Origin: Chryseobacterium indicum
GTDB lineage: Bacteria; Bacteroidota; Bacteroidia; Flavobacteriales; Weeksellaceae
Assembly (NCBI RefSeq): GCF_021504595.1
Contig: NZ_JACSGT010000001.1
Span: 1,240,001 to 1,304,000, forward strand
Length of the DNA stretch: 64,000 bases
Reading direction: 5' to 3'
The notes beneath the pieces were generated by a model that worked only from the letters and a program-made list of their open reading frames with translations, was not told where the DNA came from and did not search any database. Position numbers and translations under genes: made by a program. Of the stretch, positions 33,497 to 56,290 are shown one piece after another (positions within the stretch are counted from its first letter, which is position 1; every line of letters starts with the position of its first letter).

Positions 33497-33569
<73 letters not shown>

Positions 33570-33608
33570 CTAAGTAAACGTTTGTCGGTAACGTTTTTAA
33601 AAATATAC

Positions 33609-33681
<73 letters not shown>

Positions 33682-33717
33682 CTAAGACAGTGTTTCGGTA
33701 ACACTCTAAAAATACAC

Positions 33718-33790
<73 letters not shown>

Positions 33791-33826
33791 CTAAGACAAC
33801 GCTTCGGTGGCGTTCAGAAAATACAC

Positions 33827-33899
<73 letters not shown>

Positions 33900-46789: not shown

Positions 46790-46855
46790 CCCATCCTTCG
46801 GAGGGGTGGCAAAAAATCAAAGAATTTTTGACGGGGTGGTTAAAGATTTACAGTT
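46790..46855 (+). repeat. Dispersed repeat 'GGAGGGGTGGC..GACGGGGTGGTT', copy 1
   Basis: TCCTTCGGAGGGGTGGC, then A-rich TCAAAGAATTTTT, then GACGGGGTGGTTAAA. A second copy with the same order is at 56010-56070. It ends about 40 bp before the DUF1905-like gene. Confidence 0.75.
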
Positions 46856-51887: not shown

Positions 51888-52012
51888 ATTTTAGCCCTGA
51901 TTGAAGCTTTGTTTGAGCTCATTTTGTGTATTTTGGTTTGCGGCGGCGAAGCCGCCGCAAACCAAAATACACAAAATAGCGAGTGCGGAAAGCAGGAAAA
52001 AGCTCCTGAAAA
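51888..52012. repeat. Structured hairpin element with GCGAAGC loop, copy 1
   Basis: Conserved left flank from ATTTTAGCCCTGATTG to GAGCTC (51888-51920), left arm of 27 nt (51921-51947), triloop GAA (51948-51950), perfectly complementary right arm (51951-51977), and conserved right flank AGCGAGTGCGGAAAGC to AGCTCCTGAAAA (51978-52012). GCT before the left arm can pair with AGC after the right arm, with one bulged C. The second copy is at 56131-56260. Confidence 0.9.
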
Positions 52013-52039
52013 TTAGCCATTATTTACAGCATTAACAAA

Positions 52040-52063
52040 GACTTCAACAAGCTCAGTCTGACA
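52040..52063 (-). repeat. Decayed copy of the CTGAGCTTGTCGAAG repeat
   Basis: On the minus strand the segment reads TGTCAGACTGAGCTTGTTGA and then AGT, against TGTCATGCTGAGCTTGTCGA and AGC at 48996-49019. Confidence 0.6.
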
Positions 52064-52142
52064 GGATTTCAAAATAACAATTGGGATTAGCAATGTCAAA
52101 AAGCATCTGTTTACTCAAAGAACTTATGGGTTCACATTGACA

Positions 52143-52172
52143 ATAAAAAAAGCGGGGAAAATTCCCCGCTTG
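52143..52172 (-). terminator. Terminator of the M61 peptidase gene
   Basis: AAGCGGGGAA pairs with TTCCCCGCTT, followed on the minus strand by T7. Confidence 0.92.
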
Positions 52173-52205
52173 ATTACTAAGTCCTAATTTTAATCTTAAC
52201 TGCAT

Positions 52206-54062
52206 TTATTTTTTTCCGGTTAACCACTGGTCCTGTAATTTTTGTTCAGCGGCTGTTGGATTAGATTTGAACTGAAGCGTTTCGATCGTCATTTTATCCA
52301 GAATTGCTTTCCCTTTAAGATCGATTTTCTCTGTTTTGTCACCATTTTTTCTTAAAACGGTTACTGTTACGTTTTGTCCTTCCTTTACAGATTTCGCATA
52401 CTCCACAAACGACTGGATATTCTGAACATTGATGGTTTTTCCGTCCAGAGCAACGATTTTATCAGTGATTTTAAATCCGATGCTTTTTGAGAAAGGAGAC
52501 AGGGCTGAGCTTTCGTCGAATACAAATGCATTGTCTTTATCATCAAAATCGGTCTGTTGAGGATCTTTAATGAACCAGAAAATTGGCGGAGTTTCCTGTT
52601 TTTTTGCTTCTACACCAACAAGGCTTAAATATTGTGCATAAGGCGTTGGCTGATCTCCTGCAATGTATTTGTTGTAAAAGTCTTTTACCTGAGGATACCC
52701 TGTAACTGTTACCAGTTCGTCAATCAGTTTATCGTCTTTAAACGGTTTGTTTTCCCCAAATCGCTGAGACAGTTTTCTGATCATATCACGATAGCCCATT
52801 TCTCCGTTGGACAGCTTTCTCAGTTCGATATCCAGACACATCGCAAGAAGCGCACCTTTTTCATAAACGTTTCTGTACTGGTCTTTGTATTCGTCTTTAA
52901 GAACATTTTTACTCATTACCGTAAAAGGCATCGTATCGTTATAGTTCTTGGAGTTGGCGATTTTTTCGCTCATTCTCTGAAGGAATTCATCTTTTGTGAT
53001 CAGACCTTCCTGAATCTGGAATAAATTCGCAAAATACTCTGTTCCGCCTTCATACATCCATAAATGCTGAGACATTTTTGGATCTGCATAATCGAAATAA
53101 TGAATTTCTTCCGAATGCGTTTTCAGAGGATTTACCGTGTGGAAAAACTCATGAGAAACCACGTCTGTAATGGTTTTGTCAATCGCATCTTTCGGCATCA
53201 TTTCAGGAAGGACAACACTTGTGGATTCGTGGTGTTCCAACGCTCCGAAACCTTTAATGTGCGGTTCTTCCATCCCCGAAAGATAAAGCATGATCGCATA
53301 TTTTTTGTTGGTGTTCATATCACCTAAAAATTTCTTCTGGGCAATCACCGTTTTTTCAAGATTTTCTTTGAAATCTGCGGCTTTGTATTTTCCTGTCGGA
53401 GAATAAACGCCTAAAACAAGATCCATTCCTCCTGCATTGAACGTCACATAATCCGGTTTTGTGTACATTAACGGAGAATCGGTCACTTTTGCATAATTCG
53501 CTAAAGTATAGGTGTCTGTAGATTCAGATTTATCCTGATCTACCAAAGCTGTTGTTCCGTAGAAATCCGTCGGTTTCTGGATAATTAACTGATAAGGAAC
53601 ATCCTGCATATTATCAATATAACCTACAAATCCGTGGGTATTGATCAGATAAACTTTTCCGGTTTCAATATCTGTTCCTGAAGGTGAAAATACCGCTTTG
53701 TGTTTGGAATCGTCCATTTCTTCATCGAAACTGTCATTCACAAGATAAGTTACTTTGCTTAAATTCTGAGCGTTTTTCAGAGTGTAAGTATTGTCATTCA
53801 CTTTTGTGAAAGCAATTTCTTTTCCTTTGTTATCTAAAAATTTAATTCCTTCCACGAATCTTCCGTAATCGTCTACAGAATAAGTTCCCGGAACCGTTTT
53901 AGGAAAATGAAACTTCACGTCACCGGATTTCATTTTTGGAAACTCCATCGTTACGGCAACCTTATCGTCTTTTACATTTACCAGATCTATCGTAGTTTTT
54001 ATAGACTGCGCATTTCCAAAAAACGCAGCCAGTAATCCTAAACTTAGTGCTATTTTTTTCAT
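52206..54062 (-). CDS. M61-family aminopeptidase with PDZ domain, exported
   Basis: Start taken at ATG 54062 (MKKIALSLGLLAAFFGNAQS); an upstream TTG would add three residues. The 618-aa zinc peptidase has a signal peptide (1-19), an N-terminal beta domain, and the catalytic domain with HEFFHTVNPL (HExxH) and a downstream glutamate in MYEGGTEYFANLF. A PDZ domain is near 500-590 (SKSIGFKITDKIVALDGKTI). It resembles glycyl aminopeptidases of the M61 family and is presumably periplasmic. Single-gene unit. Confidence 0.92.
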   Translation of the reverse strand: MKKIALSLGLLAAFFGNAQSIKTTIDLVNVKDDKVAVTMEFPKMKSGDVKFHFPKTVPGTYSVDDYGRFVEGIKFLDNKGKEIAFTKVNDNTYTLKNAQNLSKVTYLVNDSFDEEMDDSKHKAVFSPSGTDIETGKVYLINTHGFVGYIDNMQDVPYQLIIQKPTDFYGTTALVDQDKSESTDTYTLANYAKVTDSPLMYTKPDYVTFNAGGMDLVLGVYSPTGKYKAADFKENLEKTVIAQKKFLGDMNTNKKYAIMLYLSGMEEPHIKGFGALEHHESTSVVLPEMMPKDAIDKTITDVVSHEFFHTVNPLKTHSEEIHYFDYADPKMSQHLWMYEGGTEYFANLFQIQEGLITKDEFLQRMSEKIANSKNYNDTMPFTVMSKNVLKDEYKDQYRNVYEKGALLAMCLDIELRKLSNGEMGYRDMIRKLSQRFGENKPFKDDKLIDELVTVTGYPQVKDFYNKYIAGDQPTPYAQYLSLVGVEAKKQETPPIFWFIKDPQQTDFDDKDNAFVFDESSALSPFSKSIGFKITDKIVALDGKTINVQNIQSFVEYAKSVKEGQNVTVTVLRKNGDKTEKIDLKGKAILDKMTIETLQFKSNPTAAEQKLQDQWLTGKK

Positions 54063-54183
54063 TGAGTTCAAATTATATTCAAGTAGTTGATGAAAAACTG
54101 AATTTGTTACTTTAAAAGTTTTAAATTTTTGTTAAAATTTAAAGAGCTTCATTAATTTAATACTGAATTGCGGTTAAATCAAA

Positions 54184-54214
54184 CAAAAAAGCAAAACCGA
54201 AAAACGATTTTGCT
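54184..54214 (-). terminator. Terminator of the M1 peptidase gene
   Basis: GCAAAATCG pairs with CGGTTTTGC (one mismatch or G-T) around a 5-nt loop, followed by T6 on the minus strand. Confidence 0.78.
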
Positions 54215-54228
54215 TCTATGATTAAGTT

Positions 54229-55857
54229 TTACTGTACCTTTTTATAATCGATATAATAATTCTCGTTAAACTGTACCGGAGTTCCTTTTTTTAGCTTTAC
54301 AGTCTGCCACTGTTCGGTTGGATTAATGGTGATTCCGTCAACAATAATAGGCAGTTTTAAATTCTTCACAACATTGGTATAGCGGAATTTCAGTTCTTCG
54401 CCTTTCTGAGAATATTCCAGTGTCGGAATTTTTGTGGTTCTCAGATATTGATTGAAAACACTTGAAAAATCGATTCCGGATTTTTTTGAAATATAATTTT
54501 CAATCTGCTGCGTTGTTACCGTCTGATGATAAAAATCTTTATTGATTCCTCTTAAAATTTCTCTGAATTTTGTATCGTTATTAATAACCTGACGGATCGT
54601 GTGAAGCATACTTGCGCCTTTTGGGTACATATCGCCGCTTCCTTCATTTCTAACGCCGTATTTTCCTATGATCGGAATATCATTCTGAATGCCGTTTCGG
54701 ATTCCCACCGCATAAAGTTCTGCAGATTTTTTATCCATATATCTTTCTGTAAAAAGTACTTCGGAATAATTTGTGAAACTTTCGTGAATCCACATATCTG
54801 CCTGATCTTTTGCCGTAATATTATTGGCGAACCACTCATGTCCGCTTTCGTGAATAATGATGAAGTCCCAGTTCAGACCAACTCCGGTACCGGAAAGGTC
54901 TCTTCCAAGATAACCGTTCTGATAACCGTTTCCGTAAGCAACATTGCTTTGGTGCTCCATTCCCAAATAAGGTGAATCAACAAGCTTGTAAGAATCTTCA
55001 TAGAAAGGATAGGGTCCAAACCAGTATTCAAACGCAGAAAGCATCGGTTTTACCTGCTGAAACTGTTTTTTTGCTTTATCTAAATTGTAGTCGAGCACCC
55101 AGTAATCCAGATCCAGTTTCCCTTTTTCTCCGTTAAAAGTATCTTTGAAATTCACATATTTTCCTATGTTCGGAATAATTGAATAGGCGTTGATTGGGTT
55201 TTTTACTTCCCATGTGTAAGCTATTTTATCGCCTTCTGCTTTTTTGCTGATTAATCTTCCGTTTCCAACTCCCACTAAATCTTTGGGAGTAATGATTTTC
55301 ATCACAACGCCATTGTCGGGTTCATCGTCCCAAATATCTTTGGTAGGAAGCCAGATAGAAGCTCCGATTCCTTCGTCGGCAACGCTCATCCACGGATTTC
55401 CGTTTTCATCTTTGGTGAAAACCCAGCCTCCGTCCCAAGGAGCTCGTTTTGCAATGGTTGGATTTCCGGAATAGGTGACGTCAATAGTATATTTTTCACC
55501 TTTTTTAAAGCTTTTATTGGTTTTGATCCAGATAAAATCGCCATCCTGTTTATATTCTGCCACCGGAAAACTGGCTTCCACTTTGTCCGCTTTCATTGGC
55601 TGTTGAAGATCAACCTGAAACGTAGGATTGGTAACGTCTTTGATGATCTCAAAACTGATTGTATTGTGCCCCTTTATACTTTTCTGAGCGAAATCAGGCT
55701 CTACGGAAAGGTCATATTTTTTGACGTCCCAAAAGTTTCGGAATTGTGTATTGGAACCTTTTAGGGTGTCCTGTTTCGTGAAAACCTTATCTTTCTCGAA
55801 AAACTGTCCGAAAGAAAGACTTGCCGCAAACAAAAGCGTATATGAAAGTTTTTTCAT
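54229..55857 (-). CDS. M1-family zinc aminopeptidase, exported
   Basis: A 542-aa peptidase with a signal peptide (1-17, LLFAASLSFGQ), an N-terminal beta-sandwich, and a thermolysin-like catalytic domain. HESGHEWFANNI is the zinc motif, with a downstream glutamate in IHESFTNYSEVL; GMEHQSNVAYGNG takes the place of the family's GAMEN exopeptidase motif. A short C-terminal domain is present but the long ERAP-like helical domain is absent, as usual for bacterial short M1 enzymes. Presumably periplasmic peptide degradation. It lies in tandem with the M61 gene, each with its own terminator. Confidence 0.93.
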   Translation of the reverse strand: MKKLSYTLLFAASLSFGQFFEKDKVFTKQDTLKGSNTQFRNFWDVKKYDLSVEPDFAQKSIKGHNTISFEIIKDVTNPTFQVDLQQPMKADKVEASFPVAEYKQDGDFIWIKTNKSFKKGEKYTIDVTYSGNPTIAKRAPWDGGWVFTKDENGNPWMSVADEGIGASIWLPTKDIWDDEPDNGVVMKIITPKDLVGVGNGRLISKKAEGDKIAYTWEVKNPINAYSIIPNIGKYVNFKDTFNGEKGKLDLDYWVLDYNLDKAKKQFQQVKPMLSAFEYWFGPYPFYEDSYKLVDSPYLGMEHQSNVAYGNGYQNGYLGRDLSGTGVGLNWDFIIIHESGHEWFANNITAKDQADMWIHESFTNYSEVLFTERYMDKKSAELYAVGIRNGIQNDIPIIGKYGVRNEGSGDMYPKGASMLHTIRQVINNDTKFREILRGINKDFYHQTVTTQQIENYISKKSGIDFSSVFNQYLRTTKIPTLEYSQKGEELKFRYTNVVKNLKLPIIVDGITINPTEQWQTVKLKKGTPVQFNENYYIDYKKVQ

Positions 55858-56009
55858 CTGAATTAAATTATAATGGCTAAAATAGAAATTAATAAACGTA
55901 AAATAAAGTGGATATTAATAATTATGGTATTCCTAATTAGACGAAGCAAATAAAACTTTGTTACATTTTTTGAATTTATTATTTGGTAATCAGTTGTTTA
56001 TGTAATGGA

Positions 56010-56070
56010 ATTCCCCTCCTTTGGAGGGGTGGCGAAAATTCATAAGAATTTTTGACGGGGTGGTTAAAAA
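56010..56070 (+). repeat. Dispersed repeat 'GGAGGGGTGGC..GACGGGGTGGTT', copy 2
   Basis: CCCCTCCTTTGGAGGGGTGG contains a hairpin CCCCTCC/GGAGGGG; then ATAAGAATTTTT and GACGGGGTGGTTAAA as in copy 1 at 46790. Confidence 0.8.
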
Positions 56071-56130
56071 ACACAATCCGCAAAAGACTTATTATCAATA
56101 TTTTCAGAAACAATTTTTTCCCGACAAAAA

Positions 56131-56260
56131 ATTTTAGCCGTGATTGCAGCAATTGTCTGAGCTCATTTTTCAGGTTTAGGGTTTTGCGGCGGCGAAGCCG
56201 CCGCAAAACCCTAAACCTGAAAAATAGCGAGTGCGGAAAGCGCGATAAAGCTCCTGAAAA
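56131..56260. repeat. Structured hairpin element with GCGAAGC loop, copy 2
   Basis: Same layout as copy 1 (51888-52012). The left flank starts ATTTTAGCCGTGATTG; arms of 29 nt at 56165-56193 and 56197-56225 are perfectly complementary around GAA; the right flank AGCGAGTGCGGAAAGC to AGCTCCTGAAAA differs from copy 1 at three positions. The lower stem differs strongly from copy 1 while pairing stays complete. Confidence 0.9.
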
Positions 56261-56261
56261 A

Positions 56262-56290
56262 GATAAATCCCGCAGAAAATCTACGGGACT
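56262..56290 (-). terminator. Terminator of tatC
   Basis: CCCGTAGA and TCTGCGGG form a stem with one T-G pair around a short loop, followed by ATTTATC on the minus strand. Confidence 0.65.

Follow-up and report, generated by a model that had tools for sequence, protein, structure and literature searches.

Flavo-1-like elements of Chryseobacterium indicum pair a conserved folding shell with an interior hairpin that is probably rewritten by template switching

Introduction

The Flavo-1 RNA motif (RF01705; Weinberg et al. 2010, PMC2864571) is listed by Rfam as a small RNA (sRNA), a candidate noncoding RNA (ncRNA) of unknown function. A transcriptome study of Flavobacterium psychrophilum (PMC9723704) reports several 5' transcribed regions that coincide with Flavo-1 matches, and also that the matches lie sense or antisense alike, many of them outside transcribed regions. 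Here we analyse two intergenic hairpin elements related to this motif in a 64,000-nucleotide stretch of the Chryseobacterium indicum genome (contig NZ_JACSGT010000001.1, positions 1,240,001 to 1,304,000; hereafter the window), and follow their relatives through the 4.84 Mb host genome and through other genomes.

Other systems resemble these elements in part. Integron attC sites have a conserved folded shell, a variable terminal hairpin and strand-specific folding; the likeness is one of working only, and the gene families listed beside our elements are varied. Repetitive extragenic palindromic (REP) sequences fold on one strand, as the window elements do on the + strand. REPs and REPINs with their REP-associated tyrosine transposases (RAYT; PMC2817692, PMC3116915) are, like the window elements, short, dispersed, intergenic and palindromic. 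The window elements differ from them in that no Y1 transposase gene adjoins the copies tested, in having copies in genomes without a Y1 match, and in occupying places largely common within the species. A further parallel is template switching, which, as reported in PMC8794818 and PMC8604942, repairs stems and inverts loops in RNA genes (rRNA) and in yeast coding sequences, with yeast ttc/gaa spacer flips listed in PMC8604942. Arm homogenisation and loop or spacer inversion in inverted repeats are common to those cases and ours, whereas the events described there are scattered in rRNA or protein genes, and the window elements form a single dispersed family of ~25-bp palindromes with a frequent signature and same-site orthologues. 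In the open-access literature we found no published account of Flavo-1 stems being rewritten, of their loops flipping or of interiors being exchanged.

Results

The original prediction described two copies of an element with common left and right parts, a GC-rich tip and a GAA loop, and both are present, at 51892-52004 and 56135-56252 of the window. The common left part reads ATTTTAGCC.TGATTG...GAGCTC and the common right part AGCGAGTGCGGAAAGC...AGCTCCTGAAAA, and the GC-rich tip with its GAA loop is likewise common to both. The stems are fully self-complementary, as had been stated, with no mismatch in the 27 bp of copy 1 (arms 51921-51947 and 51951-51977) or the 29 bp of copy 2 (arms 56165-56193 and 56197-56225). 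That the two stems differ almost completely holds for their middle but not for their first bases and GC-rich tip, which are the same. Folding z-scores were -8.9 for copy 1 and -8.6 for copy 2, with equally good folding in 0/200 shuffles. The features of the two copies are as follows (interior classes and helix P1 are described below).

51892..52004, + strand: copy 1, whole element, Flavo-1-like, interior class A (RF01705 match 51889-52003)
51896..51899, + strand: copy 1, left strand of shell helix P1, CCTG, pairing with CAGG 51993-51996
51993..51996, + strand: copy 1, right strand of shell helix P1, CAGG (P1 covariation)
51921..51977, + strand: copy 1, interior hairpin, 27-bp perfect stem, GAA loop 51948-51950 (folding)
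56135..56252, + strand: copy 2, whole element, Flavo-1-like, interior class A (RF01705 match 56132-56251)
56139..56142, + strand: copy 2, left strand of shell helix P1, CGTG, pairing with CGCG 56241-56244, one U-G
56241..56244, + strand: copy 2, right strand of shell helix P1, CGCG (P1 covariation)
56165..56225, + strand: copy 2, interior hairpin, 29-bp perfect stem, GAA loop 56194-56196 (folding)

Both copies matched RF01705 over its full length and below its gathering score of 42, with 36.7 bits (E 2.8e-5) for copy 1 and 28.9 bits (E 0.0038) for copy 2; at the curated threshold, Rfam returned four tRNAs and nothing else from the 64-kb window. Across the genome there were 53 matches at E<=10, 46 at E<0.05 and 25 above the cut-off. 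The number 46 is a lower bound because copies of the window type score low with RF01705, and such searches miss copies in other genomes as well (element L065, of the window type, is absent from the set of genome G141). Read side by side, the 46 copies have one common shell and several interiors. Class A, the window type, carries GAGCTC ... GCGAG around a 20-30 bp hairpin (16/46 copies by eye), class B is the Rfam consensus type, ATCCTTT...AAAAGAT, class C begins ATCCCG... and class D is TACCCCGC...GAGTATGAG, with a few odd copies outside A-D. The consensus shell and its covarying helices (P1, a further pair and P2) are present in window-class and Rfam-class copies alike, and the window copies resemble RF01705 in shell sequence, pairing and broad taxonomic range. 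They differ from it in their scores and in lacking the Rfam-consensus interior arm (ATCCTTT ... AAAGAT), in place of which they have the class A interior. Genome contigs scanned with a class A pattern gave at least 120 stretches, 80 of which came mostly from Chryseobacterium, with a few from Polaribacter, Tenacibaculum and other Flavobacteriales; with these and the 46 family matches in the genome, the two window copies are more than a chance pair. Flavo-1 was present in 53/119 sampled genomes of class Bacteroidia with 1 to at least 36 matches each, counts that are lower bounds with 36 candidates per genome scored under stricter filters. The window elements are members of Flavo-1 or very near relatives, and the window class is a new variant outside the curated model.

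The shell, of ~20+24 nt, comprises helix P1 (CNNG/CNNG) and a 2-bp P2, together with a 3x3 internal loop (GNA/GGA) and a further base pair that also covaries. P1 covaries freely, its pairings including CCCG/CGGG, CCTG/CAGG, CCGG/CCGG, CCAG/CTGG, CGTG/CGCG and others. The outer C and G of P1 are fixed by the search pattern. Its middle two pairs, among 168 distinct elements, were Watson-Crick in 310/336 cells against a shuffle mean of 188 and maximum of 208; the further pair was paired in 168/168 (T-A 130, A-T 22, C-G 16). With one copy per site (159 elements) the corresponding counts were 296/318 for the middle of P1 (shuffle mean 189, maximum 208) and 158/159 for the further pair, and P2 was Watson-Crick in 303/308 cells, as GC/GC, AC/GT, AT/AT, GT/AC and a few others. 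Shell mismatches were G-U on the + strand in 16 cases, the mirror A-C in 0 and other in 10 (16 versus 0, p 3e-5). Substitutions were counted in 37/39 same-species pairs, one class switch and one truncated pair being left out. They amounted to 6.2% (-120 to -36) and 5.2% (-35 to -1) in the left flank, 3.0% (+1 to +12) and 5.3% (+13 to +120) in the right flank, and 3.65%, 4.4% and 1.35% in the outer left part, interior and outer right part of the element. The shell is thus slower than the far flanks, up to fourfold (outer left p 0.006, outer right p 2e-8). Because of the covariation, the G-U tolerance on the + strand and the low substitution, we conclude that the shell is under purifying selection and that it folds on the + strand, either as RNA or as single-stranded DNA.

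The interior hairpin behaves otherwise. Among 116 window-class elements of ATTT/GTTT type, 85 had perfect stems, 30 imperfect stems and 1 no fold, and the 85 perfect stems comprised 78 different ones; this count left out 18/134 elements with TTTT-type ends, many from other genera, and at least L034, L041 and L046 escaped its regular expression. Across 2830 aligned pairs there were 22 stem mismatches (12 G-U, 5 A-C, 5 other; 12 versus 5, p 0.14). Setting this mismatch of 0.8% against ~5% divergence, and ignoring selection, a mismatch would survive a small fraction of the divergence time. Places common to different species hold the element with other stems, and both flanks aligned in 89 pairs. 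For the 21 pairs with equal stem length and flanks of >=85% identity, 25 changes were mirrored versus 9 on a single arm, pairs with unequal stems, >14 differences or flanks <85% being left out, and the 9 single-arm changes trace to three pairs and two elements (L042, L138). The stem of copy 1 is unchanged in the same-species genome G143, and its site in L057 has a different perfect stem with TTTGGGG for TTTTGG, mirrored. At copy 2 the G143 stem has four positions and one indel changed, all mirrored. Among 13 class A same-species pairs, L032, L040, L044 and L046 were not mirrored, one arm or the tip having changed. In these comparisons, the two arms of a stem at an orthologous site usually change together. 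The stems differ while the element stays at the same site, and the rewriting therefore takes place there and is no footprint of transposition.

The loops point the same way. A role suggested for the GCGAAGC mini-hairpin of the tip finds no support, as the loop is not fixed; it varies and flips, and GAA occurs in 19/115 folded window-class elements. Loop counts fall into reverse-complement pairs, TTT 29 and AAA 20, TTC 22 and GAA 19, TCC 8 and GGA 4, together 102/115, and the six intermediate A/T mixtures of TTT and AAA are all absent. Seven of the 21 comparable pairs differ in the loop, and 3 of these differences are exact inversions. Comparing the window genome with G143, 4/14 class A pairs (L035, L037, L041 and L034) have exactly inverted loops, TTTT to AAAA in the case of L034, and in L006, a class B element, a 13-nt spacer is exactly inverted. 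Beside this spacer the arm has two mismatches in the window genome but pairs perfectly in G143, and either state may be the older. The marks of a template-switched inverted repeat, namely arms that change together, an inverted spacer and an unchanged site, are all found here. Stepwise point mutation explains the exact flips poorly and selection on RNA pairing gives no reason for them. Template switching accounts for corrected arms and inverted loops alike, as in the rRNA and yeast genes above, and is very probably the cause of stem rewriting.

Occupied and empty sites were compared with three genomes. At least 41/46 places are occupied in G143; 39/46 copies have a partner there, and two more places proved to hold an element when examined further, one with a disruption at its right side. 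At L042, where 74 bp of left flank aligned, G143 has a class B interior. With G021, of another species, 16/46 places are common with both neighbour regions aligned, and 6/16 of these hold a different interior class, including the places of both window copies, whose G021 counterparts carry the Rfam-type (class B) interior; by eye, the P1 letters are the same in 2/6. For copy 2 alone, alignment of both flanks reaches the element (0-1 nt left, 10-14 nt right); the P1 letters are the same, with class A in the window genome versus class B in G021 inside, and here it is the interior itself that was exchanged. Flank alignment of the other five ends 24 to 747 nt away, and these may be separate insertions into one intergenic region. 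Places found common with G141 numbered 4/46, a lower bound, and the G021 and G141 comparisons left out six loci at contig ends. Locus L036 in G141 is a near-clean empty site, from which ~38 nt before and ~10 nt after the motif are missing as well, and no target-site duplication was visible at this one empty site. In a survey of 40 genus genomes, 10 of them without the locus read, the element at the copy 2 site was recognised in 3/30. Because the sites are mostly occupied in G143 and far fewer were found common with G021 and G141, gain and loss occur between species and little within one.

At the copy 2 place in G141 (L177), upstream of an M1-type peptidase gene, lies a long palindrome, GC-tipped and interrupted in the middle by a run of N, in which no Flavo-1 shell was recognised. 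Several Flavo-1 copies in G143 lie ~1-4 kb from 16S rRNA genes, near 1.90, 2.64, 3.785 and 3.793 Mb, and the element sequences of two of these, L223 and L224, are identical.

Turning to the neighbours, open reading frames (ORFs) flanking the 46 copies were both antisense to the element in 20, convergent in 9, both codirectional in 9 and divergent in 5; 2 copies were called genic by the simple ORF finder used and 1 was left unassigned. In 29/43 copies with both neighbours called, the right-hand ORF is directed towards the element (p 0.03). Terminator-like hairpins often lie just past the A-rich right end of the elements when the flanks are read by eye, and in the window the terminator scan listed two.

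56266..56290, - strand: terminator-like hairpin of the convergent gene right of copy 2
52150..52171, - strand: terminator-like hairpin of the convergent gene right of copy 1

The T-rich tail of the hairpin at 56266..56290 overlaps the A-rich right end of copy 2. From the sequence by eye, we take the convergent gene right of copy 2 to be tatC and that right of copy 1 to encode an M61-type peptidase. The window copies themselves were tried as Rho-independent terminators and rejected, as the scan does not list them and no T-run follows the hairpin.

Promoters were sought by counting the -7 motif, for which we used what we take to be the Bacteroidetes consensus. Upstream of the elements it showed no excess (13/157 versus 15.3 in shuffles), and downstream it did (25 versus 11.8), as promoters of the right-hand genes would give. 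For mobility, no Flavo-1 match lies <=1.5 kb from the four Y1 genes of the window genome, and G009 with 27 Flavo-1 copies and G015 with 7 are both without a Y1 match, where one may have been present in the past. The proposed link to a Y1/RAYT transposase was accordingly rejected as a present requirement. A Pfam scan covered 87/91 neighbouring ORFs, all but four short ones; its most frequent family occurred in 3/87, and the 25 families listed of 165 included no transposase and no family common to the neighbours. Copy 2 had no match in plasmids and copy 1 none in phages, a viral contig collection held a single exact shell-pattern match (L289), and a test for terminal inverted repeats found few pairable bases at the element ends. 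With the replication origin estimated from 20 slices, 28-29/44 elements are head-on, depending on the origin chosen, and 29 gives p about 0.05; this bias is weak and may only follow gene orientation.

A second dispersed repeat, at 46822 and 56046 (+) of the window, has the motif GAATTTTTGACGGGGTGG beside a CCCCTCC/GGAGGGG palindrome, and was found in 7/92 flanks of 300 nt at Flavo-1 elements versus 2 in 110 kb farther out; that both are intergenic may be the reason for this nearness. The left flank of L034 (~130 nt) matches ~20 other places in G143 and is possibly another dispersed intergenic repeat. At 33497-33899 (+) of the window, four tRNA genes with near-equal scores stand in a tight row at ~110 nt spacing.

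Discussion

Taken together, these elements are probably built in two layers, a constrained shell on the + strand and a free interior rewritten by template switching. Purifying selection acts on the shell, which folds on the + strand, and the interior hairpin is free in sequence and in most cases stays paired. During replication, the polymerase may switch template within or between the hairpin arms, which would copy one arm into the other and invert the loop, and selection would remove stems that stay broken. New copies, and the exchange or replacement of interiors, would arise on the time scale of species. More tentatively, the shell could be the part recognised by a putative protein, which would bind the + strand in its folded form, whether RNA or single-stranded DNA, a guess to which we give an even chance. 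The original prediction had left the choice between selection for the hairpin and a copying process; template switching is the best supported of these, and the hairpin-based mobility also offered is not needed to explain the rewriting.

Several observations weigh against this two-layer interpretation. Stems are imperfect or unfolded in 31/116 elements, so that arm correction would be incomplete, and several of the 18 excluded elements with TTTT-type ends are visibly imperfect hairpins. The excess of G-U among stem mismatches would fit plain RNA selection too. Four of the seven loop differences in the comparable pairs are not exact flips, and the loops of L031, L032, L039, L044 and L046 changed otherwise, some by inversion plus substitution at best. 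The compared pairs are not independent and the direction of their changes is not polarised, and the pair sets overlap, L119, L125, L153 and L165 being copies of G143. For the guessed protein-binding role of the shell, no partner gene was found.

Could selection on a true ncRNA, acting through ordinary compensatory substitution, keep the stem by itself? The sRNA listing in Rfam, the covariation and + strand G-U tolerance of the shell, which RNA selection would be expected to produce, the rank of G-U as the commonest stem mismatch (12/22), and the F. psychrophilum 5' transcribed regions that coincide with Flavo-1 in PMC9723704 all fit such an RNA. It would leave the reverse-complement loop pairs and exact loop flips unexplained, as well as mirrored changes at a level roughly equal to flank divergence, and it sits badly with the lack of an upstream -7 excess, with both neighbours antisense in 20/46 copies and with matches in either orientation, many outside transcribed regions, in that same F. 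psychrophilum source. We consider RNA-folding selection alone an unlikely explanation, and the promoter absence and antisense neighbours lean slightly to DNA over RNA. The suggestion that the hairpins are terminators or 3' untranslated region hairpins of neighbouring genes draws on the right-hand ORFs directed at the element and the terminator-like hairpins just beyond its right end. As the window neighbours have terminator-like hairpins of their own, the elements go unlisted without a T-run, and shell covariation is foreign to terminators, this is highly improbable.

A different account would make the elements REP-like, or like miniature inverted-repeat transposable elements (MITE), which a Y1 (RAYT) or similar transposase would move in the form of folded single-stranded DNA, each new copy receiving a new stem. 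Dispersal with a bursty copy number across the sampled genomes, the near-clean empty site at L036, the few places found common with G141, folding specific to the + strand and the five of six G021 class differences that could be separate insertions, one intergenic region each, agree with movement. The distance of all four Y1 genes from any Flavo-1 match, the copies in G009 and G015, the occupancy of most places in G143 with stems that change in place, and the lack of a visible target-site duplication at the single empty site speak against it, and the mild head-on bias may just reflect gene orientation; on balance we regard it as rather unlikely. A bolder version of template switching, in which Flavo-1 is no RNA gene but a DNA hairpin module, its conserved socket recognised on folded single-stranded + DNA and staying at chromosomal sites that receive interior cassettes swapped between copies, with most cassettes kept paired and loops flipped by template switching, seems to us distinctly doubtful, a view lowered because both flanks align up to the switched element at copy 2 only. 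If it were true, these repeats would be a record of template switching across the genus.

For the family, the two-layer interpretation means that Flavo-1, a widespread Bacteroidota motif, can now be split into a constrained shell and a free interior that evolves by paired rewriting, with its folding strand identified. It also warns that compensatory changes in a long hairpin need not prove that it works as RNA. The mutation mechanism is a known one, of which these elements would hold an unusually clear natural record, and copy-rich genomes would each offer dozens of natural sites for measuring the rate and direction of template switching.

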